Shown here: in pieces, positions 10,842-42,022 of the stretch
How the letters are laid out: each line of letters starts with the position of its first letter
Numbering within the stretch: the first letter of the stretch is position 1
Assembly: GCA_037892935.1 (NCBI GenBank)
Contig: JAYXKI010000001.1
Span: 4,278,001-4,342,000, forward strand
DNA from: Phlebopus portentosus
Taxonomy: Eukaryota; Basidiomycota; Agaricomycetes; Boletales; Boletinellaceae
DNA length: 64,000 bases
Reading direction: 5' to 3'
Program-made: the position numbers and the translations under genes
Notes under the pieces: generated by a model
The model's database searches: none
What the model saw: the letters and a program-made list of their open reading frames with translations, nothing else
What the model was told of the DNA's origin: nothing

Positions 10842-12680
10842 CGCTAGACTTCGCGCCTGCGCGCCTGTGCCGTTCTTCGCTAAGTCTGAAGTCCACAGAG
10901 GCGCTCGTCGCTGTTGGAAAGAAAAAGCACTCCATGGTCCGTACCGAAGACCATCCAGGTCAAATGAGTGATCGCATGTCAGGTGGTCGTGTGGTGCGTC
11001 GATCTGAAGTTACATAATATTATCCCATTCAGGGATCGACGCTTTTACACTTGAAGTTGCTCCTCTTCAGATTAGATTACGCCAACAGAACTTAACAGTC
11101 AGAGCTGAATGCTCGCGGAGCTCAACGCTGTCACCTGGAATTTATGAATAAGGCAAGTTGCAAGTGAAAAGCGACTGTCTCATGCCGAGACTACGAATTG
11201 ATCCCTGGAGTCGGCAGCGCATAACTTGCTCTGCTTTGTTTACGAGACAAGAAAGCCACACGAGACGGTATTTGAATTTGAAAGCTTTAGACGCTAGGTC
11301 ATTGATATGATGTGATGACTACGTCTGACATACTTCAGGCTGAATGCGTAGCAACCAATATTCTTCAGCGGATTAGTATTCTGCCAGTGCTGCTCTGCAC
11401 TGTCACAGCTTATATGCATCCATTATATCTCAAGGGCCACCGCGTTATGCAGCTAGGTATAAGTCTACCCGCTTTAGCACTACCGCATGGCGCAGGTCAT
11501 GCGAATAGTTCAATGAACCGTGAATGTCAGTGAGTCTCGGTTAGACTCACACGACCAGAGCCATGGAGTAGATGCCATGCAGATGCAGCAGATCCTGACA
11601 GGTTTCCCAAGCATATGGACTGCAGAAAAATGGTCCTCTAGATTCTTCTGAATGGCTGGTAGACTGGACAAGACCGACGTCCGGTGCGCATCCCTATGCA
11701 TCTTGACTAGCTAGTAAACGGAGGCCAAGGAAGTGACTTGACTCGAGACGACATTTCTAATTGAGTATTATATTTGTGGATGTGTGCAAACTACTGTGGA
11801 ATTGGAGATTTTCTAGAACATCCTTTTCATGAGGTCGGGCGTCCATCCGAACCCCAGAAGCCGGGCCGGCCAGACCTGTCTGTCTTCGAAAATTCAACAT
11901 CAGCTGTACTGTACCACGGCGTCGTCGTTCCTCCTCGTACCTCCACCATCTTTTCTGCGCGGAATACCTAGGTGAAAATGATTTCATTCAGGTCCACTGC
12001 TCGAGCTATTCTCCGCGTCCAAGGAGTATGCAGGTATGAATAACCGGCATCATCAATGCTCCGACGCGGATCTAAGGACTGCACCACCGTGGGGACAACG
12101 GAACTCAGTATAGCTGTATAATTCAGGTCGACTGAAGGCAAGTTGCTCAGAGACAATCACATGTATTGCTGAGGCATCAATCAGTAAATGGACCGTGCGT
12201 CACTACGCTGCTTTCGGTGCCGGCGTACGTACATCCGAAACGGCGAGCGATGCAACGGAATTCTTTGTGCCTGGCACCTGTTCGACCTACTGGCCACCGC
12301 TTTATATAAAAAATACATCTTTTCTCATGCCTGCGACTTCATCGCCTGACTTCTAGCTTAAGTTTGGTCATCTGCAGCCTTATCAGAAATATGGTGTGCT
12401 GCAGAAGAGGCACCGCCAAGACCTACTTGGCGGACTTCCAAAATTCTCATCAAGCTGAATTTGGCTCCGTGTCAGATTGATTGCCTCCGTCGCACAGCTT
12501 CAAAAGACACTATGAATATGCTCCGTGGGCGCCACCAAAATCTACGCGGGCCGGGTCTTGGACGTGATATAAATCCAGCCCTGCTGTACTCATTGAACTC
12601 CCCATATCCGCAAAAATCGACCTCTTCCTCTCGCAAACCTCTTGCCGCCCTACGCTTCGCTTCGTGACTCTCGTCAAACC
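10842..12680. other. intergenic, no gene seen
   Basis: About 1.8 kb between divergent genes. The translations are short and non-repetitive and no domain is recognised. The last 150 bases before 12681 are pyrimidine-rich and follow a possible TATA at about 12300 (TATATAAAAAAT). Confidence 0.4.
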
Positions 12681-13132
12681 ATGCTGAATCTACCCATCCC
12701 GCACACTCGTTCTTCGAACTCTCGCGTAAGAAGCATTGTGGTACGTTGATTTCTGTCGTTCAGATTTCCCCCTTTGCTCGAGCTCACATCGACTTTTCAG
12801 TCCTCGTCCACAGCGTCATCGTCATCATGGAGACTATCACGGCTCCCAGGAATTCGTCCTTCTCTTGATTCCGATATGGTACGTTTCACTCATTCGATCC
12901 AATCGCACCGATCGGATCATTGACGTCTCATGCTATATATGTCTAGAAACGCAACAGTTCCGACTCGTCTCAATTCACACTATCTTCAACTTCGAGCAAT
13001 TATGTTAGTGTTAACCTATCTATACCTTGTCGACCCAGTCATTTATTGTATTCGTATTATACATAGGCAGAAGACTTGGACGACGACAATATGTCATGGG
13101 GACCTGTATCCCGGAAGAAGAAGCAATTATAG
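12681..13132 (+). CDS. small intron-rich protein, DDDNMSWG family, copy 1
   Basis: Not recognised. Four exons (12681-12740, 12801-12878, 12947-13003, 13067-13132) separated by phase-0 introns with good GTACGT or GTTAGT donors and CAG/TAG acceptors give 86 residues. The protein begins MLNLPIPHTRSS, then has a Ser-rich exon (SSSTASSSSWRLSRL, ending SDM). An exon starting KRNSSDSS follows, and the last exon reads AEDLDDDNMSWGPVSRKKKQL apart from one extra residue limit, that is acidic, NMSWG, basic. There is no signal peptide, membrane segment, Cys or CaaX end. The acidic-then-basic tail could act in the nucleus, but that is inference. What makes it a gene is the match in exon lengths and sequence to the copy at 22811-23216 and the weaker match at 18781-19392. 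Confidence 0.75.
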
Positions 13133-13476
13133 TCCACTTACGCTCGGATGACGTTCTTCTCATTTATTTTATTTATACATACGTATGCGGCTTGAATTTC
13201 AGAATCCATGTGTTGTATCTTAGTCGTTGTACGAATAGCATTACTGAGAGATTTCTTTCCTCCCCGAATTCACTGATGGTCGTCCGAATTTGAAGAGAAG
13301 CCACTCATGTATGTCCCGAGAGACAGCAAAAACATGCAATATTTCTTCTGCCTGCTATGATCGCGATCAAGAATTACTATACTCTACCACTATCCTACTG
13401 ACGAGGCATCACAGAGTAGGGATGATCATGATCAAGAAAACCATAGGTGCTCTTCACCCGGCGCGCCATCATCAGA
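13133..13476. other. short convergent intergenic
   Basis: 344 bases between the end of the small gene and the 3' end of the MFS transporter gene on the other strand. Nothing seen beyond likely 3' UTRs. Confidence 0.4.
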
Positions 13477-15859
13477 CTACAAAGAAGTCTTCCCCCGCGG
13501 CTCGAACGGCAAGAGCAGCGCGATCAGTCCAGCGACGAGGAACAGGACGCCCGAGATCCAGATGGGGACGGACGTGGTGAGGTCGGCGTATAGCGCGATG
13601 ATAGGAGCCTTCGAGCAATGAATGTATAAGCTCTCAAGAGAGAGTAATGAGAATGAAGAGATCGTGATTTGCGTACCATCACGCCGAAGATCCGGTTCGC
13701 GGTTGCGACGAGTCCGTTGCCCGTTCCTCGATCTTTCGTTGGGAACAGCTCGGGCGTCAGCGCGTACAGGACTCCATACATGATCTAAAAGCACACACAC
13801 AGGACGAAAGGGTGAAATTGGTATTTCAATTTCTCGATTATGGGAATAAGAGTAAATACCACTGACGTTACTCGTGAAGCTGTATCCACAGTTCCATCCC
13901 AGGAGAGCGTCGGACGTCCGTGCGGTGGTACTCGCGAAGAGGAACACCCCTGTCAAGACTATCAATGCCAATATGTCATTACATGAGCGCGCGAACTTCC
14001 GAACTTCGATGCAATACTGAGGATTAGATACCGACTGGTTGAGATAGAGAGAGAGCCTTTCCTGCCCATATGCGGAAGCTCGACTGACCACCCGGCGAGC
14101 AGGGCCCCAGGAACGCCGATTACGCTGAGAATCACTTGCTGCAAGATGATCAGATAGTCATTTTATAGGCACGACTGGGAGACGTTCGGGCTTACGTTTC
14201 GATAGGTGATGTATAGAGAACCATCGCCGAAATCCGCACCGCGAATAGCAAGGCTAGAGAGTATAGAACAAATAGCATCAAGTCATGAAATTTAGAAGTC
14301 CCTCACTAATAAGTCACAAAGCTGTTGTACCTGGAGTAAAGCAAGTCAGGACAATCTCTTTTACAAAAGAGGCTTGAGCTTACAGAGGAAACGCCAATCC
14401 AATAAGCGCTGATAGTCGGGTTTCAATGTTCTCTCTTCAAAGCTGGCAAGCAATGGCAGGAAACAACGGCGTACCCCACAAAGTGATGAGCAAACTCGTG
14501 TTCCACGCAAGCCTCCGCGTTGCAAACAGCGCCTTGATATGCCCAGCATCGAACTTCGCCAACTTCCTCCTCGCAGCCGCTACAGCTGACGTATCCAGAG
14601 TCCTGTTCCCCTTCCCAGAAGCGTTATTATCATCACGCTCCACAGCTCGAAGGTGCTCAATCGTAAGCCTGCTCGGCACGCCATTAATCTCAGCAACTTT
14701 ATGCACGACTTTGACGGCATCGTGATCTCGCCCTCTCCCCATGAGGAACTTGGGGCTTTCGTAGAGATTGAAGACGAAGAAACGGATGACCCAGAGGACG
14801 AACATCGCGCCTCCCATCGTGAAGAGGAAGTAGCGCCATCCTTGGTTTTCCGAGCGCGGCATACCTCGGCGCCGGTAGGGCAGGAGAAGTTGGCTATTAG
14901 TGGCCATGCGACCTTAAAAAAAGTCAGATACGATCCCTTGGGCCAGCGTGCGTGTTTACCAGGCTGCCAATTAGTTGGCCGAAAGCCCACCATATCGATA
15001 GAATAGTTAGGAGGTACTGATGCGTCCCAGGAATAAACTCTAGTACAATCATATATCAGTTAGACGCACGTAAAGCTAAAAATCTACCTCGGTCCTCTCG
15101 TGCTTACCTAAGAATACAGCAGAATCGACGGGGAGATTACCGCCAACTCCGATACTCCAAAGCGTAGCAAACCATATCAAGGCAACTTTATTCGGTGAGC
15201 CGCCTGCTGCTATTGCAAAGACCGCGATGATGAGCAAAGTGATGTTGAATGACCACCTGCAAGATTCAATTTCAGCACCACTATTTTTCTTGGGAAAGGA
15301 AGAAATGTATACGAACCGCCTTCCCCAGACGTCGCTTCCAAGGCCCCAGAAGGACGCGCCTACGAGTAGTCCGATGTTCTGACCGAGCTTGAGGAACGGG
15401 CCTTCGAAATTGAACTCAGTGGTTACGGGATCCAGGATAAGTCCCGTCACGATCTGCAGGTCGTCAGTTAAGGTTATGATTGTCAGGATCAGTGCGGACA
15501 TACAGGCCAGAGGTTATCTCTGAAACAAAAATCAAGTCTGAATCTCGAAATAATGCACAGATTGATATGATACTGACGCGAACCATCCGAATCCCGCAAC
15601 GAAGAACAATTGCCACTGGATGACCAGAATAATAAGCAGACCGTCCGAATTTCCTGAACGTCGGGATTACCTGGTACTTCCCCATTCCAATTTCTTGAAC
15701 AGCATGGTTCAGTATGCGCGCCTTTGCTTGATAGACAGGATCAATACTGTCATCAAAGAGATTGAGCGTCTCATTTTCTTTTACGCTCGTTATGCTCGAT
15801 GCAGCGTCCGATCCGTCAGGTTTGGAGTCCTTCCCGTCGTCATCTCGAGGGTCGGACAT
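13477..15859 (-). CDS. MFS transporter, SV2/SVOP-like
   Basis: Twelve-helix membrane transporter of the major facilitator superfamily; substrate unknown. The start at 15859 (MSDPRDDDGK) is the first ATG of a hydrophilic, acidic N-terminus. Conserved pieces in order are LTDDLQIVTGLILDP, then GLLVGASFWGLGSDVWGRR (MFS motif A), WSIGVGGNLPVDSAVFLG and a central loop with YESPKFLMGRGRD. The C-terminal half has ITYRN, VIGVPGALLAGWSVE, YALTPELFPTKDRGTGNG and a last helix ending EPRGKTSL. The GVGGNLPVD signature and the ESPKFLMGRGRD loop are typical of fungal SV2-related carriers rather than of hexose transporters. There are about ten short exons; some junctions (around 14340-14400 and 14900-15010) I did not resolve exactly. 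Confidence 0.85.
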
Positions 15860-16062
15860 GGTATGGCACTGGTAAGAGTCCAAGTCACATCCAAGCGAAT
15901 ATCGCGGCGAAGCCACATATCCATAAGTATTTTCATATCAAAATTTGTCTACCTGTACCTGTTCTGATTGCGCCATATCATGTGATCCATATAGTTCCGA
16001 GGTATCCCATAATGAGGTCAGAAGGAGAGTCCATTTGGGCAGCTTCATGTGCAGACATTTTC

Positions 16063-16422
16063 AGGACCCCTGGCAATTCCAGTAGATGCCTGTGCTGAAA
16101 ATCAAGCATTTTATCCGGATCCCCTGGTTTATCCGGGTTGCAGACATATCGGGCATGTGGGCCGGTTATGACCGGACCCCTGATGCGTGACATCAAATTC
16201 GCGGCGAGTCACGTCCTATCACTGAACCTTTTTTGTCACGTTACTGATAGGTCGGCTATCCGGATGGGAACAGGCATACTATACTGTACCCCGGATAATT
16301 GACCCGAGCCCTCCACCAAATTTGGGCGAAAATATCCGGATCGGAACAGGCCTAAGGCTCAAATTTTGGCATTTTTAATCCAGATTCGGCACAGGGATCC
16401 ATTGGAATTGCCAGGGGGTCCT
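16063..16422. mobile_element. hAT-like MITE, about 360 bp
   Basis: Terminal inverted repeats of about 40 bases: the left end starts AGGACCCCTGGCAATTCCAG and the reverse complement of the right end starts AGGACCCCCTGGCAATTCCA. They stay alike for a further 20 bases (GTGCTGAA against GTGCCGAA). Directly outside are 8-base flanks ACATTTTC (16055-16062) and ACATTGTC (16423-16430), a target-site duplication with one mismatch. An 8-base duplication is the mark of hAT elements. There is no transposase, so it is a non-autonomous MITE. Inside, two direct repeats of TATCCGGATNGGAACAGGC lie at 16257 and 16333. Confidence 0.82.
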
Positions 16423-16430
16423 ACATTGTC

Positions 16431-17030
16431 CCGTTTATCGTACTGAGTTGCGGGGCATGAGGGTCGGTGGCGCAATTTTTCGACGTAAAGAGGTTATAGC
16501 GAGCCAAGCACGGAAAGAAACTTGGCGAGTAGGCACACTTTGGGGGGGACCTGCATCGTGGTGGCAGATAACGGAAGCATTCATGAGAACCAGGGAAGGA
16601 GAGGAGCATCTTCAAATGGGTCCAATACGCAGAAGTGAATCTTCTCCACTGTACTCGTCTGGCCTGGAGAGCTTCCAAGACAGAAGCGACCGGCGCCGTG
16701 GTATTTGTGAGTAAACTGACTTGGATTTGGTGCGGCCGAAAGAAAGAATCCTGCCATAGTCAAAATAGCTTTGTCGAAATCTCCGAGAGGGTACAGAGGC
16801 CGAAGGATGAGTTGGTGGTTTTTGGATAATAATTTTCTGAAAAAGAGGGATCTGAATGACGAGTCGTCAGATTGGTTTCCATTTGCAAGAAAGGTGCTTG
16901 GTCACGTATACGAACCAGGAATGCAGCATTTAGATGAAAGCGCTGGGGATGGTACGTGGTAAACTTGTTGGGACCCAGGGACGTGCGACAGACGCGCGGC
17001 GACGAAACGCGTTCTTCGTCAATCACCACC
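16431..17030. other. intergenic upstream of LipB
   Basis: Six hundred bases with no protein-like frame. It lies between the MITE and the LipB start and presumably holds the LipB promoter. Confidence 0.35.
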
Positions 17031-17875
17031 ATGAGCGTGCCTCCGATTTTCTACCATTTCTTTTCATCACCTCTGCCATACGGACCAACTTTGGCACTGC
17101 AGGAATTCATACATGGTGTGCAGCTAGCAAGACGACGCGTGTCGGGAAACCATCGTGATTACCTGTTACTCTTAGAACACCGACCAGTATTCACGGCGGG
17201 AGACGTCAAAGAGAGGAAGAGCTTCGAGATGAGAGGGCGCGGTTACAAGGGATCGGCGCAGACTTTGAGAGCACACAGCGGGGCGGCCAGCTAACCTATC
17301 ACGGACCAGGCCAGCTTGTCGGGTATCCTTTGCTGGACTTGGGGCGCACCGCACCAGCGATGCCGATTCGAGACTACATCTGCAAGCTCCAGCGCACCAT
17401 CCAAGAACACCTTCGCGAAGAGCACGGGATCACACACGCACCGTCTGAGCATACCGGCGTGTTCATCGACGACGGAGACGGCCGGGGCGCAAAGACGAAA
17501 ATAGCGAGCATCGGCGTGCAGGTCCGCCACCGGCTCACGACGCACGGGTTTGCTCTCAACGTGACGACGGAGCCGCTTGCATGGCTCGATACGATCGTGG
17601 CATGTGGTCTAGCAGACGTGAAGGCTGGCTCGATCGCCGGGAGGAGCAAGAAGGCTGCTGAGCCCGATGTTACCGTGGCCGCGCAGATCCCAGGTATCGT
17701 CCAGACGTTCGGGAAGCTTATGGGGAGAGACACGGTGAAATTGGACCTATCTGATGATGCAGAGGTATCCGAGGCCATCGCGAACTTGGAAGAAAAGTCA
17801 CGGACGCTTCAACTGGATAATCCTGCCCTCGGAGGCCTACGCCTTCTTAACAATTCACCCTGCGAGGCATCATGA
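17031..17875 (+). CDS. LIPB: lipoyl(octanoyl)transferase LipB (apparent 1-base frameshift)
   Basis: Transfers octanoate from acyl-carrier protein to lipoyl domains in mitochondria, the first step of protein lipoylation. Intronless. Start at ATG 17031 in a good context (CACCACCATGAG). Conserved pieces: YLLLLEHRPVFTAG, then RGGQLTYHGPGQLVGYPLLD, EHTGVFIDD, KIASIGVQVRH with the active-site Lys, THGFALNV and IVACG with the active-site Cys. The first 57 residues and the rest lie in different frames. TAG is followed by RRQREEELRDERARLQGIG only if one base is added near 17198-17204. Total length 845 is one short of a multiple of three, which agrees. Probably a sequencing deletion; a recent pseudogene is possible. 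A cleavable presequence is not evident. Confidence 0.88.
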
Positions 17876-18780
17876 CACGAAATCGCGTACATCAGGAAGA
17901 CTCGCAGCCATACAATGTTTCGTGTGAGTCAACCTTCTGCTTGTGTCTTACTGAACGTGAGCTAGAAATGAATTCGGTAGAGTAACAAAAATTACATCTC
18001 GCTCGTCCTGATGTTCTTTCTGGGCGCAATCAACACGGACAGAAGGTCGTCTGATAGCTCAAAACCGCTTTCTGTCCGCTATACACATGCGCCATAGCCG
18101 TGTCAACGCTATTACCATGGTGTCCCTTACAAACGTGTGCGAGTCTTGATCGTCCAATTCATATACCACCTGGCATATGGCCCGGCATAGTTCAACGTAA
18201 CAAGGAAACGAGATTCGCGAATCACGGGAAATCATACTACCCGATCGTCGAAGTTCATATCCATCCAGCGTCCACTATTTACACTCTTCTTCGATCTGCA
18301 GTATATATTTCTGTGGGGAGTCTGGCCCCTGATTATGTCCAGAATCATCCCTTTTGCTACCACCTCTGAGCTGCTTCGACGGCACGGAACTGGCACGGCC
18401 CACCGCTTCCGCGCAACTTCTGACTTCCATGCATGCTTACCCATTGAAGGACCCCCACTGGCTTCTGTCTTGCGTGCCGAGTCCGGCTATCTGTCCTGCG
18501 GGTGCGGGCAAATATAGCTGGTCTTTCAAATTATTTGTAAGATGATACCGTACTTCTTCTGCGTAATATTGCTCTTTTTGCTTGAAGGCGAAGGCACATC
18601 TCCGCGGTGCGGATCCTTACAATATCAGTTTGAAAAGTACATTTTTGAAAAGTAAATCGATTCTTCTTTCTGGACTTTAATCTTACAATCCAGGCCAAGG
18701 AAGTGGTATCTGAAGTACCTGCATACAACATTCTGGTGATAGGAGTCTGGAGGTTGGAAAGAGAGGGAGCGGAATGCATA
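17876..18780. other. intergenic, no gene seen
   Basis: About 0.9 kb between convergent genes; no protein-like translation on either strand. Confidence 0.35.
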
Positions 18781-19392
18781 TCACCAGAGTCGGCATGACG
18801 CCTGGGTGGAGTCCGCGCTACTCGGGATCGAACTCGCTTCTTCATTCCTGTTTGATTTCGTATGCGTATTTCGGTGCTTAGGGCGCTTCGACGGCCGACC
18901 CCACGCCATATTATCTTCGTCGATGGACTCTGCTTCGAGCTGTCAAAGAGCCAAGTTCAGTGTTCCAACCCTCGACTGTGGAGGATAAGAACTCGAAAGC
19001 GTACCACCGAATCATCATCGCTCTGCGCGTACGCGTATGCGAGGCTGTCGACACTGCCGTCAACGTGCTTCGTCGGGGACTGCCGCTGGGAGTTTCTCCA
19101 CATCAGTTTCTGCGCCGAGGTTTCGCGCGGGCGGCGAGATTTCTTTGGGAGGGAAGGGGACGTACGGAAGCGAACGCCCCGCACAGGCTTTTCCGGATCT
19201 TCTTCAGGATGCCTTGTGGTGATTGGCCGGGCTTCCCATCATACTGGCCAACAGGGTATTTGTGGTAGCTCTGTCCAAATATGGATTAGCACGTCAGTTC
19301 GCAGCCCAGATTATGAAAAGAGTACGAGTACTTACGGGAGCAGACTCCCAGGACGTTCGGTGTGTATGGCTACGATAGACAGTGGAGGACAT
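18781..19392 (-). CDS. small intron-rich protein, DNMAWG family, divergent copy 2
   Basis: Not recognised. Four exons on the minus strand (19336-19392, 19166-19270, 19005-19109, 18781-18939), all joined by phase-0 introns of 56-65 bases with GTAAGT, GTACGT and GTACGC donors, give 141 residues. The last exon holds ESIDEDNMAWGRPSKRPKHR, matching the acidic/N-M-S-W-G/basic end of the copies at 12681 and 22811, then adds about 30 further residues. Exon 3 starts with Lys as in the other copies (KLMWRNSQRQSP). It also holds a YAYA run and SDDDS just before the last intron. Exons 2 and 3 are longer than in the other two. PSKRPKHR resembles a nuclear localisation signal; that is inference. Confidence 0.65.
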
Positions 19393-22300
19393 GATGAAGC
19401 TGGTCAGACGGGGTAGATGGGTAGATCGTGAAGGCAGGGACGTGACGGAACGTATAGTTCGTAGCACGATATCGTCAAGCTTTAAGTACTATAAGCCAGC
19501 GGTCCGCACTCGGGGATAGAAGGCACACAGAAGGGAGCACCGATATCCTCAGAAGACTAGACTAATACAATAACTGCGGGCAGAGGGGGGACGGAGAGAC
19601 GATGATGATGAATGGACCGGCGTGTGGGGAAGAAGGGAAGACGGGAAGAAACCAGGTCCACTCAGAATGAAGAAGTGCAAAAGGAAAAGGATGGGTGGGC
19701 CGACCAGGCTGTATGCTAGCTAGTGTGACCTGCTGACACGGACCCCTCCCTCCCTTTTGTTATTATACAATACATCATACATATACTTACGTGGATCGGC
19801 TTTAGCGAGATCTAAAGCGTCTAGGTAAGTAGGTACTTCGTGCTATCCAATCATCGTCGCGCGTAGAAGCAAAAGTATGTATGTAAAGTATATGTATGTA
19901 CATTCCGCTCTCCTCGCTTGACTCCGACCTCCATTGGTCCAGTGCATCACATAACGCCGGCCCTATCCACAAATTTCGCAAATGCAAAATTACTACGTTC
20001 GGCCTATCTTCATTCGATCAGGCCGGGTGCTGCATTTCGGCTCGTAACTGCGATTTTTAAAAAAAAATCACGTTTTCGAAGTTATGGGGGGGGACTGGGA
20101 GCCAATCATCTAACTCTAACATGATCACGGAGGGATCGAAGAGGATGACTTGGAAGTGGAGGGGAGATGTTATTCTAGCTTGCTCGTCAAGTGAAGAAGT
20201 GAATTGAACAAACTCACTGCACGGCGCATCACTGAATGAACTATCACGAGACAGACGCACTCAGACGTTGACTCCAGGCTCCGGCATAAATTTATTTTCG
20301 CACAGTGCACAGTCAGAGAGGCCCGTGTCGGGAAGCATTGCTTTATAGTACGACCCCGTCGTGATGTATGCCATGCCATCATACCGAATACATCATACGA
20401 ACATATTTTAGGCGAACAGACAAGCGCTGAACAATTTTCGAGAGTCGCGGAATGCCTCACCGTGAAGCCGAGAAAGTCCGTGTTGACTAAATCCTTATGA
20501 AGCCGACTTTAGGTTCCGCGCGTTACGATCGTACGTACAAGAATGTTGGTCCCCTAGAGAGTTCTAATTGGCTATTCAGCCCAGTTCAGCGCTAGTTCCA
20601 GATGAGGGGTTTTATAATTCCGTCAGCTTCGATCGATATTCAACTGAATACAAATGTCAGGGGAACTACATCATATACTTGATTCAGAACACATGAGCGA
20701 ATCAAATGTACCCTCACATGATGATGCAATCACATCGGAACCAAAAAGGCGCAGGGGATGAAAGTCCTGAAAAATGAAATGGACGGTACACGATAGGCCG
20801 AATCGCCCGTTTCATGCTATGCCAACTCCGGCGTTGCATCCGCCACCGCTTTCATCCATCATTTTTCTTTTTCATCGCTCCGCAAATTAGATATAGTAAT
20901 AGCACTGGAGCTTTTAATTCGGTGGCGTCCAATCCAAATCGAACGGTTGCCAGGACGTAACGTAAAGACACCCCGCAAGTTCGTCAACTCCAAGAAGGAG
21001 GACTCTGAAGCGGGAAACGAGAAGGAAGCTAGACGGATGAAATGAAGGAAGGTTTTGGGGGTTGGGTTAAGCTATTCAGCCCGACTTGCCGTGCCCGGGC
21101 GGCGAGCCACTCGAATCGTGCGTGGTAAGCCAGTCCAGTTCCTCGGATTGGATTACACATATCCGCCACTGTGGTTCATCTCCGAAAGGCACAGAACTGT
21201 TTTCTCGAACGGAATCGCGATTTTGTCGAGAGAACAAAAGCCCATAAACGGAGAGAGAGAGGAGCTTAGATGAAAGTTCCGAGCGGAAGGAACTCCGTTG
21301 TCATCCCTTCCTCTTGATGAAATTGTCAACGTGAATTAATGAACGGACCTGAGTGGAGGGTCATGAGTTCAGGTAAGAGTCGCTGGTAAGGTTCGACAAG
21401 TTGTGTTATGCCAGTGATATTGAAGGTACCAGACCAGGGGGTAGCTGACAAACGTTTCCACGGCTTATGAACGACGGTTTTGGCCTGTGGATTTACAACA
21501 CAACACCTTCTGGATCCGTCTATTCTTGCTGGTACAAGAATATATTCTGGTGGCCTCCGAACCTTATTCAATTCACCGATCGCAGACTCCGGTGGCTCAC
21601 GTTATCAGTCAGAATCCGGCACCCGACTGCGGCTGAAATGTTTCACCGCTGTTCACTTTTTTTTTGTTTCTCCCCTTTCTTTCTCGACTCTTCGTCTTTC
21701 TTCTGGGAGTCGGATTTAATCGCTGAGTACCCGCAGTCAACAAAAGAAACTTGCATCCTTGTTCTTCAACAAGTGAAATGTCTCTCTGCTTTGTGTCTTG
21801 ACTGTTGGAACCATAACCTGAAACTGTATCCCGTCGGATTTCTTCACTCGAAACCCTTGCCTTGGCTTCATAATCATCGCCATAGTTTCATATCTCCTAT
21901 GACTAGCCTAATATCGAAGGCCTACTTGTCTAGAGCTTTCAAAAGAGGACTTGTAGATAGCAGAAACTGACCGATATCCGAACGCGTCGGTGCCGTCAGT
22001 GATCAAATAGGAAAAATAATCCGAGTCTGAAGATGATCTGTGAGCGTCCTTCATGAATCCCGCTCTGAGTTCATTTACCGAAGAAAGGGAAGCACTTCGC
22101 GTTCGGCTCTCGATCCTTTGTCGCTTTTCTGATATCAGAAATCACAGCATTTCGGCACTACTCCTCCAAGAAAAGAATGCTCTCATGCAATTTCTGAGGA
22201 ACGTGCTTCTGCTCGACTAAAAGCGGCTGATCAGCGGTGGCTCGCCCGCATTTGAAGGGAAGAACGTAGAATATGCACGTCATCGGACCTCCTGAACGAT

Positions 22301-22810
22301 TACTCCGGCACCGATAGAGTACACAGTCAAATTCCAAAGGAGGGACTCCTTTCCCTTGGGATGGGGCCCCTTGTCGTAGACGAACGCCGTGAAGCGCATG
22401 CCGCACCTTTCGAATACCTCGAGAAGTCTCCGCTTATTACGTCGAAGGAGGAGGTCCTGAGAACGCAGAGCTTGCAAACCGGTTTTTCTTGAACCTGAAG
22501 GAGCGAGAGCTCCTCGGAAGTCTACTTCTTCAGCTTGAAGAGGGAATGCTCTAGACTTGCTTTGAGGTACTGTAAGTATGTGAAGTCGATCCTAATTGAT
22601 TCCGAGTTATTATTGTTCTGATAAGCACTACGGCTCGCTCGCGATGCGAGCTCAAAAGAGCTCGGTTTGCATAAGAATAGATATCAAAAGCAAATTCCAG
22701 GTGATTCGAAGTAATTATTTTACATATGGTATTCTTCGACCTTTTAAATTTGGAGTCCTACGTGTCCGGTCGCGAACATAGATAACAGAAAGAACGGCTG
22801 AACTTGCTCG
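19393..22810. other. gene-poor stretch, nothing recognised
   Basis: About 3.4 kb with only short frames. It includes simple runs (A8 near 20060, G7 near 20087) and no terminal repeats or transposase motifs that I could see. It may hold old decayed elements. Confidence 0.35.
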
Positions 22811-23216
22811 TTAAGAACGGTGCTTCTTGCGAGACGCAGGCCCCCAAGCGATGTTTTCGTCATCCATGTCCTCCGCCTGGATAGGAATCGGTAAATCATT
22901 CTATAAAGAGAACAATATCACTCACAAAATCTTGGGAGGGGCCTTTTGTCATGTTTCGGTAAGAGTCCTGGCTCGGACGTTTCTATAAATATGGTTAGGA
23001 CGGTGAGTGAGATCCGAACATGAAAGGAGCGTACCAAATCGGACTCATAAGAGCGACGAAGACTAGACATCACAGAGAATCTGGACGATGAAGAGGATGC
23101 AACAGAGGATGACTGAATAGTACTACGTTAGACGAAAGCAAGTAAGCACGTTAATGTCCGTTTACCTTGATGCTCGAAGCAAGCGAGCTTGATGATGTCG
23201 GGAAGCCGTTCAACAT
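22811..23216 (-). CDS. small intron-rich protein, DENIAWG family, copy 3
   Basis: Not recognised. Four exons (23166-23216, 23035-23112, 22926-22982, 22811-22876) with phase-0 introns of 53, 52 and 49 bases give 83 residues. Exons 2, 3 and 4 are 78, 57 and 66 bases, exactly as in the copy at 12681-13132. The proteins align along their whole length: MLN start, Ser-rich exon 2 (SSSVASSSSSRFSVMSSL, ending SDL), exon 3 starting KRPSQDS and exon 4 with AEDMDDENIAWGPASRKKHR. Keeping reading frame, splice sites and exon lengths while the bases differ widely is strong evidence that this is a real gene. Function unknown; no signal peptide or membrane segment. Confidence 0.76.
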
Positions 23217-25492
23217 TGTTGAGTAGATGAAGCAGAGGTAGCTTTCTACGAGAGCAAGCAGTCGACGAGGTTAGCTGATATGAGTCGTTGAGGAAGGCTA
23301 AGTCGTTGAGCTTCTGAGTATGATGAGCCGAACGGAGGCCAGCTTTATACTAATTTCAAGGCGCGGACCGTGCAAAATTAGCTCACGGATGCAACTTGGT
23401 ATCAGCGGCTTTGGAGCGGCACCCCGGAGGTATTCGAGAGCAAAACTAGTACAGATCGAAGGGAAGCCAAGTTTAGAGTTCAGAAACACTGAGCATTTGT
23501 GGATCGCCAAGCTGCGGAGCCATCTCTCAAAAAAGCATCCCAATATACACTTGATGTGGTCTAGGCTATATCGGTTCTTGGCTAAAGCTGATACATGAAC
23601 CATGTTACATTGCACCTAACAGAAGTCGGATACCAAGATCTACGGTGTCTCACAGCATGCGGTTGCGGTGAGTGAGCAGATGCCAGGCACATGCTCTTGA
23701 GCCATTCCGGATGTTTGCAGTGCTGTTGCCGAAACTCCAGACCGCGACGCTCTTAGAATGAACCATCGCAGAGCAGTTTGTTGATGCTCGTTCCTCAAAT
23801 CTGACCATGTGACACACTCTATTTGCAGTTTTGGTCAGCACACCGCAATCAGTTTGGTGGTGTACACGGTGCTAGCAGCGTTAGGTCCGCTCCCGGAGCA
23901 TGCTGACGAGCATCGGAAGTCTACTGAGGTGGTGATTTGTCCCTTTTGCATACGTCGCATGGAAGGAGAAACCTGAAAGGGCCGGTGATGGTGATGGTTC
24001 GATGAGAAGAAAGAGCCCAAAGAGGAGAAACGACGGATGTTTCTGGATCTAAAAGTTTCAAACTCAGATTAGCTCAAGTGAACAACTGCCGATCACAGTT
24101 TCGTATGTTAATAAATGTCATCGCGCTTCGTTCGTCCTTGCAGTATGATATCTTGATGTTTCGTTATCTCGAAATTGAGTATTGGCCCGCTTTCATCTTG
24201 ATTGAAATCTTCGAGGTCAATTTTCAGCGATATTCTTTGCTGTTCGTCCTGCACGTTCGGGAGTAGTACTCATACTTTCGTTTGAAAGATGTTCTCATCG
24301 CATCCGGGAAATTTTCTTGTATATGTATGACGCTTGACAAGAACAGGCTATTTTAGTAGAGCGACGCGAGCGCGGCAGGAGTACGTTTCGCGAGAGTTCG
24401 ATCAAGTGAGAAATCTCTGTTCTCATTACCAGCGAGTTCACTGGAAGAAGAAATCGCAATCGCTTCTTTCAGGAGATTCCCACCGCGAGAATAACAGGCT
24501 GTTCAGCCTCAGATTGCGCTTTGACATGCGCCAAGTACAGAGCATGCCCACACCTAATCCACTGTACTGGGCTCTTACCGAGATTTGCACTATGCTATTT
24601 TCCTTGGTCTCGGTTCATGGAAGACCGTACATCAGTATCAGTTCTCATGCTTAGAGCGCTAAATCACCAGTTGCCTTCCCAAATTTTCGCTCGAAGACTG
24701 TCTGGACGGAGAAGGATTCGCCTGCGCATAAATTTGCACTTTCCTAGCTGAGTCGTGTATGAAAACTTCAGTAGCAAAGATGCCATCAGTTTTAACAGTG
24801 TTAGGTAGAAATGGGAAAGCCACACCTAATCTAAGTTGAAAATCCTTGTCAAATAAGGTCTCTGCTGGCACAAGTCTTGTCCTGTCCGACGGTATTCAGT
24901 TTTGATACGTTTTACTCCACCACGAAGCACTTGGGCAGTAGATACTTTTGCAATCCGACGAGTCTTGGGCGTACTTCGACTCGGAGCACTTTCTGCGGCG
25001 GATTGACTACGACATTACTCCCACACGTCTGTCTTGACGTACATGTGAACGGGAACCCAGTAGCATACAATGGATAATGTCGGGTCCACGGATGGAAAGA
25101 GAGACGTTATTGTCTTAGAAATATTCTTGGCATACGAAACGCATCTATTTTAGTAGGTGTCGTGAGAATGTAGCGATATCGCAGGTTTGTCACCGTTTGG
25201 GAGGGCTGATGGGAAGTAACGATTCGTGCTGAGATCCCGAGGGCCAGGGAATTTTTCTGAGTAGGTTATTTTGTCTGGAATCATCGTGAGCTTGACCGTA
25301 GATAAGCTTGTGCGCAAACAACTCAGCAGGGGACACTGTCGTGCTTAGGACTTGGTGGTGAAAGAGAGAAAGGGCACGTGATGCGTATTGTAACTTTGGT
25401 ATGTGAATTGAGTCGGAGATCAAATTTTGGATATGCTGTGTCCGAGTACCTTAGAGATCGACCATCACGACCAACGGGTGCAACGGATTATC
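23217..25492. other. intergenic, nothing recognised
   Basis: About 2.3 kb. It must hold the promoter of the small minus-strand gene ending at 23216 and that of the kinase gene starting at 25493. Open frames here (for example 23298-23615 minus) look like chance. Confidence 0.35.
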
Positions 25493-38141: not shown

Positions 38142-41100
38142 TCATGCATAGTACATCAGCCGGCTCTGTAACTTGTTTACATCATAAAACTTCCATTCCT
38201 GCTCATTATACTCCGCGTCGCTGCTGCCCATCGAGCTCGGCATTGACTGGTTGTCCTTATACTCGATATGGATGCCTGCGCGTCTGCATGCTAACTGGTA
38301 TCTACCGGTCATCTTAAATAGTAAAGTGGCTTTTGAGAGAAGACATACGTGAGCATCTAGAGACGTGCATGTAAGTATAAGTACAGTCTCGTATGGCGAC
38401 CCGAAGGCTGATGCACTTACAGTAGACAGGAGCGGGTACGGAAACTGCGCGGGTCGCGCGTGCAAATGTATGGCAGAGACCAAACGTTATGGACTGCAAT
38501 CTATAATCTACCTTATAAAAATCCGGAATGAACGAAAAAAATTTAAAAACACACGCGTCCGTGGAAAGGTTGTTTTCATCCATAAGGACCATATAGTGCG
38601 CAGGTCTCGATGCTGAACAATATAGTAAACAGTTACCGTCAGCAATCTAGTCCCCTTCTCGGAAACCAATATAACCGGCACTCACTTCCAATCAACCCAG
38701 CATGCGACTGGAGGAAGAAATCATACATGTGCGGACTCGTGATTCGTGGGTCGTCCGTTACGAAGCCAGATGGACAATTTTCCGAACGATCACCTTGTCC
38801 ACGTTCAGGGAAGAACCGAATATGATGCCTCTTTCCGACTACGATGTACGTGATTTTCGGAAACGAGCTTGTCACTCGCAAGTCCTTCCAAACTTTCTGG
38901 ATGCCAGCTTCTCATGAGTGCGTTAGATCGACCGCTTTTGTTATGTGCTACTATACGTACCCTTAATCGCTTCAATCTCCAGCTTACCTACATTCACGAG
39001 CTCCCCGTCCGAAAGCCCATCACGGTACACAAGAATGCGCTGAGGAAGGAAAAAATTATTGAACGTCGCCCGAACGTGGACTCCAAATCTATTCATCGCC
39101 GCCTGTCATTTGGCGCTGGTAAGCACCACGATTAAATTCGAGCATGGAATGAGGAACTGACGTAGATCATCTTCGACAGATCTTGTACGATCTCCAACCT
39201 AGGTGGCTGACTTGAACATAGTGGAAAATATCGACTTGCGTTCGGGTCGACAGAATAGACCATTGAAGCCATCGACGGCCGGAAAATACCAGGACCCGGA
39301 TGTGAGACGTCCAATCCTACAATGGGCGGATGCAAAGTATCTGTATGAGAAAGAGGAACTTCGCTACTGCTACTTCAACAGTAAAGGACTCACCGACTAC
39401 CATCGTGGCTTCGCCGTTCCTCGGACTATAGATCCATTCCAGTCCTTCTTTGATCGGAACGAAGTTGATGCCACCCATCTTAGCGTTAATCCTAAGTCAG
39501 AGACAGTAAATCAGCGAGCACCAGAGGTTAAAACGCAAAAGGAGTACTTCAGAGTGATGTTCGTAACATATTGGTCAACAAGTCCCGAATTCCGCTTGTC
39601 CATGACTTCTAACGCATCCCATGACTACGTTTTCCCACATTGCTACAGTTGCGCACGACCAGAAGCAAAACAAGAGAACCTACCAGACATTGTGTGATAA
39701 CTCCTGGGCTAGCAGTAGTATCTCCCACTCTCTTGATCTCCTCGTGCAAGACGCTCTTTCCGCCTCCAGGAAGAAAAACAAGAATCAAGAAACTTTGGAG
39801 GTCTTCTAGACTGAGTTTCCGTTTCTCGATAGCCTGGACTTCCGTGAGTAACTCTTGCAAGTGCTTCATATGTGAGTAATTTAGGTCGTCAGTAGAAAAA
39901 TAGGCGCCATGACGCGTAAAAACCGTACCCCCAATTTGTCGGCCTGAGGATTCCTCTGGTGAATCACAGGTCTTCTCCGTTCTATCCGACTCGTGTCCAC
40001 TCCTAGAAAGGTAGTCAACGACGCCATCCTATGCATCAATGCATGCATATGCCTCACCAAAGAACTTCAGACAATTCTGGATTTGTCTAAGAATTTTCGC
40101 CGCAAAATTTACGTCGCAATCCCTTTCATATACCAACGCTGCCCAGCATTTTATGGTACATGGCTGCCAAAACGGAGTACAATCTCTCTTCTGAAACTTC
40201 CAAGCACCGTCTTTTGGTTTCTGCCACGAAATTGGCTAAGTAATATGTTCCATATTGGCGATAGGATATGAAAATTACCTTGACTAGTGCTTTAAGGCGG
40301 ACGTCTGGGGGAGGTAGTAGTCTTCCGCGGACAGAGACAAGATCACGATCAACGTGCAAACCAGCAGAGTTCAAGGCGGCTGGATTAAATGCCTGTATCG
40401 TAACTATAAGCATCTCGAATTCAGGGCTAGTTTTAATGACAGGATTTACCTGAAGGTGGCTCTTTATCTTAGCCATGCGCTTATCGGGCGGGAGCGTGCT
40501 CATCTCATGGATCTGTTGGTGGATCCTCTGATTCATTCTGCGCCGGTAGAATTGTCCCTCGATGACTTCAAGCACCTCGAAAGGTATTATTTCAGTCCTG
40601 TCGGTGTTCTCTCTGTACCTGTCCTTCTTTATAATGCGTATACCTGGGAACGTGGGAAATCGTAGGCGGTAATTATGTGCGCGAAAGAAGAACTCCTTGA
40701 TCATAAACTTCATCACGAAGAGAACGGAAGAAAATATGTCGTCAACCTACTGCGACTGTCGTTTCTGTCCCGTCTTCGAGGTTGAATTTTTCTTCTCCTG
40801 CCCTGGGAACAATATCTTTGATCGTCCTTATACGTCCGATTTTCCCTCCTTTCTTCTGTCTTACTCGAACTTTCTTTAGGGCCGAAAGAAGTTTTGCGAC
40901 ATTGTCTGTGCGTGAAAGGTCACGACAATTTGAAAGCTCCAGAAGCCTTGCAGCGACAGTTATCAGATTACCGCTCTCATACCTATTTTCCCAGTCAGGT
41001 TCGAAAACCTCACAATGACAGAGATGAGACACTCACATTATCGCTGAGCAGACATCCACGTTAAGAAGCAGGTGCTCCCGAGCAAGCCGAACGCTCCTAT

Positions 41101-42022
41101 TTCGATGTCAGAAAACTTCGGTCAAGGTAAAAACGGAAGGTCAACTCACGCGAAGCATCCGCGGACGAACAGTAAACCCATTGTTACAGATCGCTTGTCG
41201 GTCATCGAATACATCGTGTTCCTCGTCGCAACTTTCCTGAATTCCCTGCATGTTATAAGGTCTTTCAGTATGCGAGTTTCAGTTGTCTGCGCGATTACCT
41301 ACGGTGGAGTTGAGTTATGCAGAAGCAAGTTCATGATCTGCTGAGCTGTCAACGCGGAATCCGAGTGGTATTGATGAGTAACGAGAGACTCGAAGTCTCT
41401 GCAGCTCATTGCGTTAGGACTACACATGCGGGTTTAAAAATAGATCATTTACTCTGGAAGTATGAATCCGGCTTCCTTCAGCTCGATGTGGATGATCCCT
41501 CCGGTGGCGCCCTGATAAGTTTCCCGTACCTCGAAGCGCAACTTCCAAACAAAATGAGTCGATATACGCGAAATCGATGTTATTACACCTACGTGACCTG
41601 CTGAACCGAGATCTTTAGACGTGTAGAGTCCTGCCTTTCCATCATAGACCACTTGACCAGGCTGGAAATACTTTGGATAATCACGGACATAGAGGTTCGT
41701 GATGATTTCTCTGCGTCGCAGAATACCTTTGATCTCATTGTTGCTTGGAATCGATCTTATACCTGAATTTACCGTTTATGAGGCCCAGTCGACTCACAGG
41801 GCAAGCAACTTACTGTGGACTATAGACGAGGGTGAGCATGCCAGCAGAGAGAAGAACTCGTGAACAGAGTAGCTATAGGTCAAGTATGAGAAGCCTACCA
41901 TGATAGTGATGAAACGCAAGCTTCCTTATGATAGAGACTCGAAAACAGTTAGTAGCGGCAAGGAATACAGTGCCCTTGGAACCAGCAGTCTCTGGGCGGG
42001 AAGCGAGGGTGAAGACGGTCAT
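38142..42022 (-). CDS. AGO: Argonaute (RNA-silencing effector)
   Basis: Core of the RNA-induced silencing complex. About twelve exons in Argonaute order. N domain: [13 protein letters not shown] and [20 protein letters not shown]. Linker: [53 protein letters not shown] and [35 protein letters not shown] and [46 protein letters not shown] (first catalytic Asp), [13 protein letters not shown] (second Asp), [25 protein letters not shown] (catalytic His) and [19 protein letters not shown]. It ends QSRLMYYA, like the hydrophobic ends of other Argonautes. The slicer residues look complete. At about 41004-41008 one base (T run) seems missing between two conserved exons. The start at 42022 ([10 protein letters not shown]) is provisional; a longer N-terminus is possible. 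The 3' end lies only about 200 bases from the next minus-strand gene. Confidence 0.9.

Follow-up and report, generated by a model that had tools for sequence, protein, structure and literature searches.

Background

The small proteins of fungi include many that are passed over by the length limits of genome annotation, and conserved examples encoded by short open reading frames (sORFs) have been the subject of a dedicated survey. In the sections of that survey drawn on here, the new predictions are single open frames of at most 80 codons, obtained with getorf and sORFfinder (PMC7394265). In this report we deal with three small genes, referred to as copies 1, 2 and 3, that lie within 10 kb of one another in the basidiomycete Phlebopus portentosus. 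They were found in a stretch of 64,000 nucleotides (the window), which corresponds to 4.278-4.342 Mb of contig JAYXKI010000001.1 in a 38.4-Mb, 23-contig genome. Their products, like the sORF proteins, are of a shortness that annotation tends to pass over; unlike those predictions, they are spliced genes encoding 83-141 amino acids on exons of 51-159 nt, and so fall outside the range given in those sections of the survey. The locus provides an example of small genes, with four exons each, that would be missed when small fungal proteins are surveyed in single frames, and by itself it represents one small paralog group seen in one genome.

A second point of comparison is provided by the WG/GW hook proteins, which encompass Tas3, GW182, a subunit of RNA polymerase V (Pol V), the viral protein P1, and GWO1 and GWC1 of Cryptococcus. 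The contexts of WG/GW in Tas3, RNA Pol V and P1 are described as rich in A/S/E/N/D residues in the portion of the source used here (PMC2904775), and the excerpted account of basidiomycete RNA interference places the GW/WG proteins GWO1 and GWC1 within it (PMC4778953). The three copies resemble this group in having an invariant WG and a D/E/N/A/S-rich lead, but they differ in harboring one WG only, in the basic residues that follow it, and in their small size.

A Pair of Paralogs under Constraint

Each of the three genes is made up of four exons, and the introns are in phase 0 and bordered by GT..AG in all nine cases. The coordinates, exon numbers, phases and last-exon peptides that an earlier note had assigned to the genes were all borne out when the DNA was read again. 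Copies 1 and 3 are very probably real genes and, as judged from the comparison of their DNA, demonstrably paralogs that have diverged under constraint on the protein sequence. Exons 2-4 of the one gene match those of the other in length (78/57/66 nt), and the alignment runs gap-free through 66 codons and the stop codon. BLASTP returns 50% identity over 46 residues (E 6e-15, for a single comparison), and the alignment score of the two proteins is reached by 0/2000 shuffles. The earlier note had proposed that Ka/Ks be compared between copies, and for this pair dN (0.43) is indeed lower than dS (2.09, a value near saturation). Changes are found at 33 of 47 synonymous and 49 of 151 non-synonymous sites (rounded counts; Fisher P 7e-6), and third codon positions change most, with 43/67 altered against 40/134 at first and second positions together (P 4e-6). 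The introns of the two genes show little likeness, their scores being reached by 49, 42 and 139 of 500 shuffles.

The likeness is unevenly distributed between the exons. Exons 2 and 4 each pass the shuffle test alone (0/2000), whereas exons 1 and 3 fail it (265/2000 and 81/2000). The proportion of non-synonymous change (pN) is 0.20 in exon 4, 0.29 in exon 2 and 0.51 in exon 3, making exon 4 the best conserved. Of the resemblances first noticed between copies 1 and 3, which also include the serine-rich exon 2 with its SD(M/L) end, the common MLN and KR starts are weak by themselves because exons 1 and 3 do not pass alone.

An Ending Shared with Copy 2

The three genes had been proposed to form one family. 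This holds for copies 1 and 3 over exons 2-4, and it holds for copy 2 over exon 4 but not over exons 1-3. The module common to all three endings comprises about 20 residues and can be written AE-x-hydrophobic-acidic3-N-(M/I)-(A/S)-W-G-x-basic. Exon 4 of copy 2 is alike to the other copies over 21 residues (E 3e-6), and a profile built from copies 1 and 3 recovers it with E 2.4e-4 when the window is searched as six-frame stretches. With exon 4 included, 0/2000 shuffles score as high as copy 2 does against copy 1 or against copy 3; without it, the scores against copies 1 and 3 are reached by 443/2000 and 1674/2000, respectively. The similarity of copy 2 exons 1-3 to the other copies is no better than that of shuffles, and the gene is alignable along exon 4 only. 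Given that the match is confined to exon 4 and that single-protein queries of the genome do not link copy 2 to the others, we read copy 2 as a gene in which this ending would be attached to another first half.

Alternatively, copies 1 and 3 could be the real pair and copy 2 an unrelated gene whose ending arose by chance or convergence. The dissimilar first three exons and the unlinked protein searches are in keeping with this, as is the last intron of copy 2, whose distance upstream of AE exceeds that in copies 1 and 3 by two codons. However, nowhere else in the 38.4 Mb is the ending pattern matched exactly, the three loci lie within 10 kb, and both the profile match and the shuffle test connect copy 2 exon 4 to the pair. 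An unrelated copy 2 is thus quite unlikely in our view, and the reading of a shared ending on a different first half is retained in what follows.

Further copies were sought across the genome, where all search counts are lower bounds. A degenerate DNA pattern for exon 4, written to fit all three copies, gave three exact matches, all of them these copies, and its control gave none. When one mismatch was allowed there were 18 matches, namely the three exact ones and 15 others, against 11 for the reversed-pattern control at up to one mismatch; the seven of these 15 that were examined show no family-like ending, one of them being DDVAWE directly after a stop codon. Profile searches of the window with exons 2, 3, 4 and 2-4 gave nothing beyond the three copies among the best matches listed, the next having E values of at least 0.3, and genome searches that took copy 1 exon 4, copy 2 and copy 3 as queries gave these genes only among the matches listed. 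A translated genome search with copy 3 recovers a copy-1 exon stretch, and the earlier statement that no search based on open reading frames would find the genes was thus too strong.

The suggestion that the genes belong to no known family agrees with the libraries searched, as all three proteins are without a match in Pfam and NCBIfam (0 families at E<=10 for 3/3 in each). The NCBIfam library is bacterial and archaeal, so that its result has little weight for fungal proteins. Neither the motif profile nor the full alignment matched a Protein Data Bank (PDB) sequence, and the window is without a match in Rfam. A literature text search for spellings of the motif returned only papers unrelated by title, and literature on such small fungal families gave no match in the titles and abstract openings listed, which is not proof of absence.

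Gene Models

The features of the locus are collected in Table 1. The start of copy 2 exon 3 is uncertain because intron 2 has no branch-point match and an alternative in-frame acceptor, at least as good by eye, is found 24 nt downstream after CTGAT. Codon usage was scored after training on 10 window frames of our own choosing and compared with 1000 random pseudo-genes, of which 54, 7 and 0 score at least as high as copies 1, 2 and 3, respectively; for synonymous choice alone the figures are 449, 40 and 90. By this weak witness, copy 1 has less backing than copies 2 and 3.

Table 1. Exons of the three genes, elements upstream of them, and full copies of the dispersed repeat (window positions except for the repeat)
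Feature	Position	Strand	Length (nt)	Basis or remark
Copy 1 exon 1 (MLNLPIPHTRSSNSRVRSIV)	12681..12740	+	60	DNA reading; boundary aligns with copy 3
Copy 1 exon 2, Ser-rich, SDM end	12801..12878	+	78	DNA reading, profile, shuffles
Copy 1 exon 3, KRNS start	12947..13003	+	57	DNA reading; weak likeness alone (81/2000 shuffles)
Copy 1 exon 4, AEDLDDDNMSWGPVSRKKKQL + stop	13067..13132	+	66	DNA reading, motif pattern, profile
Copy 2 exon 1	19336..19392	-	57	DNA reading
Copy 2 exon 2	19166..19270	-	105	DNA reading
Copy 2 exon 3	19005..19109	-	105	Start uncertain: 19109, or in frame 19085
Copy 2 exon 4, LEAESIDEDNMAWGRPSKRPKHR + 29-residue tail + stop	18781..18939	-	159	DNA reading, motif pattern, profile
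Copy 3 exon 1 (MLNGFPTSSSSLASSIK)	23166..23216	-	51	DNA reading
Copy 3 exon 2, Ser-rich, SDL end	23035..23112	-	78	DNA reading, profile, shuffles
Copy 3 exon 3, KRPS start	22926..22982	-	57	DNA reading, profile
Copy 3 exon 4, AEDMDDENIAWGPASRKKHRS + stop	22811..22876	-	66	DNA reading, motif pattern, profile
TATAAA of copy 1	12568..12573	+		113 bases before ATG
TATAAA of copy 3	23344..23349	-		133 bases before ATG
10-mer ATTTGTGGAT upstream of copy 1	11772..11781	+		Weak
10-mer ATTTGTGGAT upstream of copy 2	19965..19974	-		Weak
10-mer ATTTGTGGAT upstream of copy 3	23495..23504	+		Weak; opposite orientation to gene
Dispersed repeat, two full copies	L046:720 to L056:529; L053:243 to L057:52			Further copies in L047-L052, L054

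Proposed Function

A charge-hydropathy plot places all three proteins with the disordered ones, and serine makes up 28, 17 and 29% of copies 1, 2 and 3. No copy has a hydrophobic segment, the best 15-residue Kyte-Doolittle mean being 0.52, and all three have a basic end. Copies 2 and 3 contain an import signal of the K-(K/R)-x-(K/R) type, and KRxS, a site of the basophilic-kinase type, is found at the same position in copies 1 and 3. The earlier proposal of small nuclear or chromatin-linked proteins is compatible with this composition (no hydrophobic segment, disorder, basic end).

The reading that we favor, and hold tentatively, is that the genes may encode a local family of small regulatory proteins, disordered and nuclear, in which exon 4 would supply a docking peptide and a basic end. 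The disordered proteins would enter the nucleus by way of this basic end. The acidic-N(M/I)(A/S)WG stretch would act as a short docking peptide whose tryptophan fits a pocket on a single partner protein, and in copies 1 and 3 the serine-rich first half with KRxS might adjust this binding by phosphorylation. Copy 2 would join this docking end to another kind of first half, and the partner could then be contested by several inputs. If the docking peptide is true, the module represents a defined 20-residue probe for finding that partner.

In favor of this reading, exon 4 is both the best conserved exon and the sole part common to all three copies. A number of points weigh on the other side. It is from composition that disorder, import into the nucleus, phosphorylation and a partner are all deduced, and the evidence comes from the DNA of one genome. 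Copy 1 is without K-(K/R)-x-(K/R) and has RKKK only, and copy 2 is without KRxS. Exon 3, the holder of KRxS, is weakly conserved between copies 1 and 3 (44% of bases). Finally, the part that copy 2 has in common with the others amounts to only about 20 residues, and the genome protein searches do not make the connection.

Such acidic stretches bear a likeness to activation peptides, and the shared end could be an acidic peptide of this type, acidic around M/I and W, that binds a site on a coactivator or histone chaperone. The D/E-rich stretch with its M/I and W, the adjoining basic cluster and the disordered composition all fit this description. However, the lack of any Pfam match leaves the proteins with no known DNA-binding domain, and the stretch is short and directly followed by basic residues, such that we regard an activation peptide as unlikely.

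Less likely again is the reading of the shared end as a minimal hook for Argonaute, in which a WG within an A/S/E/N/D-rich stretch would bind the tryptophan pocket of Argonaute and the proteins would be small regulators or competitors of RNA silencing. The WG is invariant in 3/3, and A/S/E/N/D account for 71% of the seven positions that precede W in each copy. This level is reached by 2 of the 36 WG dipeptides found in six-frame window stretches of at least 30 amino acids, one of the two probably being copy 2 itself (copies 1 and 3, with their shorter frames, lie outside the set). Silencing proteins with WG/GW are described for the basidiomycete Cryptococcus in the excerpt already cited (PMC4778953), and Piwi matches occur at about 36 places in the genome, one of them in the window some 15 kb away. 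This nearness of an Argonaute gene nevertheless has a chance of about 0.04, which is a rough estimate and not a formal test. Moreover, each protein has a single WG. Known Argonaute hooks usually carry several WG/GW. The residues after the WG are basic, and when both sides are taken together the A/S/E/N/D content is 43-50%; around the window WG dipeptides the corresponding median is 29%, with 2/36 at 50% or more. Given the solitary WG and the basic residues after it, we consider the hook improbable, and more improbable again the wider proposal of a cluster of single-WG mini-proteins that would bind Argonautes and modulate RNA silencing in this Piwi-rich genome.

That these small, clustered, intron-bearing genes encode precursors of peptide pheromones or secreted peptides, by analogy with the small genes for basidiomycete mating pheromone precursors, is disfavored to the point of being hardly credible, as copies 1 and 3 are without cysteine and hence without the CaaX end, and no copy has a hydrophobic segment like a signal peptide (judged from composition only, with no dedicated predictor). 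The C-terminus of copy 2 is CRLW.

Upstream Regions and Neighborhood

Copies 1 and 3 are each preceded by TATAAA, and copy 2 has none within 900 bases upstream. When the kilobases upstream of the three genes are compared, they have about as many words in common as expected at random. One 10-mer, ATTTGTGGAT, has three occurrences in the window, one in the kilobase upstream of each gene, and 94 in the genome; any common 10-mer is found in 18/3000 random triples. A common regulatory site is possible, if weakly indicated, and the word is a lead only because five word lengths (8-12) were examined and the random control covers lengths 8-10.

At 16054-16430, upstream of a lipoate-ligase-like frame, there is an inverted repeat with arms of 46 nt that are 78% complementary and 285 nt apart; it may be a miniature inverted-repeat transposable element (MITE) or similar small element. 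The 3.4 kb or so between copies 2 and 3 (19400-22800) wholly contains one frame of at least 120 amino acids (21449-21970), which is without a Pfam match, and further small spliced genes are possible there. The genome has 13 peroxidase matches, and one exon of one of them is closest to versatile peroxidases, from which we take the fungus to be an Agaricomycete of the white-rot type.

Argonaute Genes and a Dispersed Repeat

The Piwi matches in the genome number 77, and it was by our own clustering that they were assigned to about 36 places. The one in the window belongs to an apparent intron-rich Argonaute gene on the minus strand at about 38200-41800, with outer limits set by eye. It has Piwi pieces at 38422-39341, and ArgoL2 and a weak PAZ, both below cut-offs, at 40129-40746. 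No match longer than 200 nt was found between this gene and the dispersed repeat described below.

Ten Piwi stretches were picked by us from these places and fetched, and nine of them hold all or most of a dispersed repeat, sharing at least 4.5 kb pairwise at 92.9-98.1% identity. The two copies read to both ends are 7,810 bases each. Where the left ends of four copies and the right ends of four were compared, the ends are sharp against differing flanks, and terminal inverted repeats, short and imperfect, are present; in some other copies the left part is not the same. One copy contains ArgoL1, PAZ (below cut-off), ArgoL2 and Piwi pieces, together with an Hsp70 piece on the other strand, and no transposase was recognized in the six that were tested of its ten frames of at least 100 amino acids. 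No account of such a repeat appears among the literature matches listed. The 7.81-kb repeat looks like an Argonaute-bearing mobile element, and it may matter more than the three small genes.

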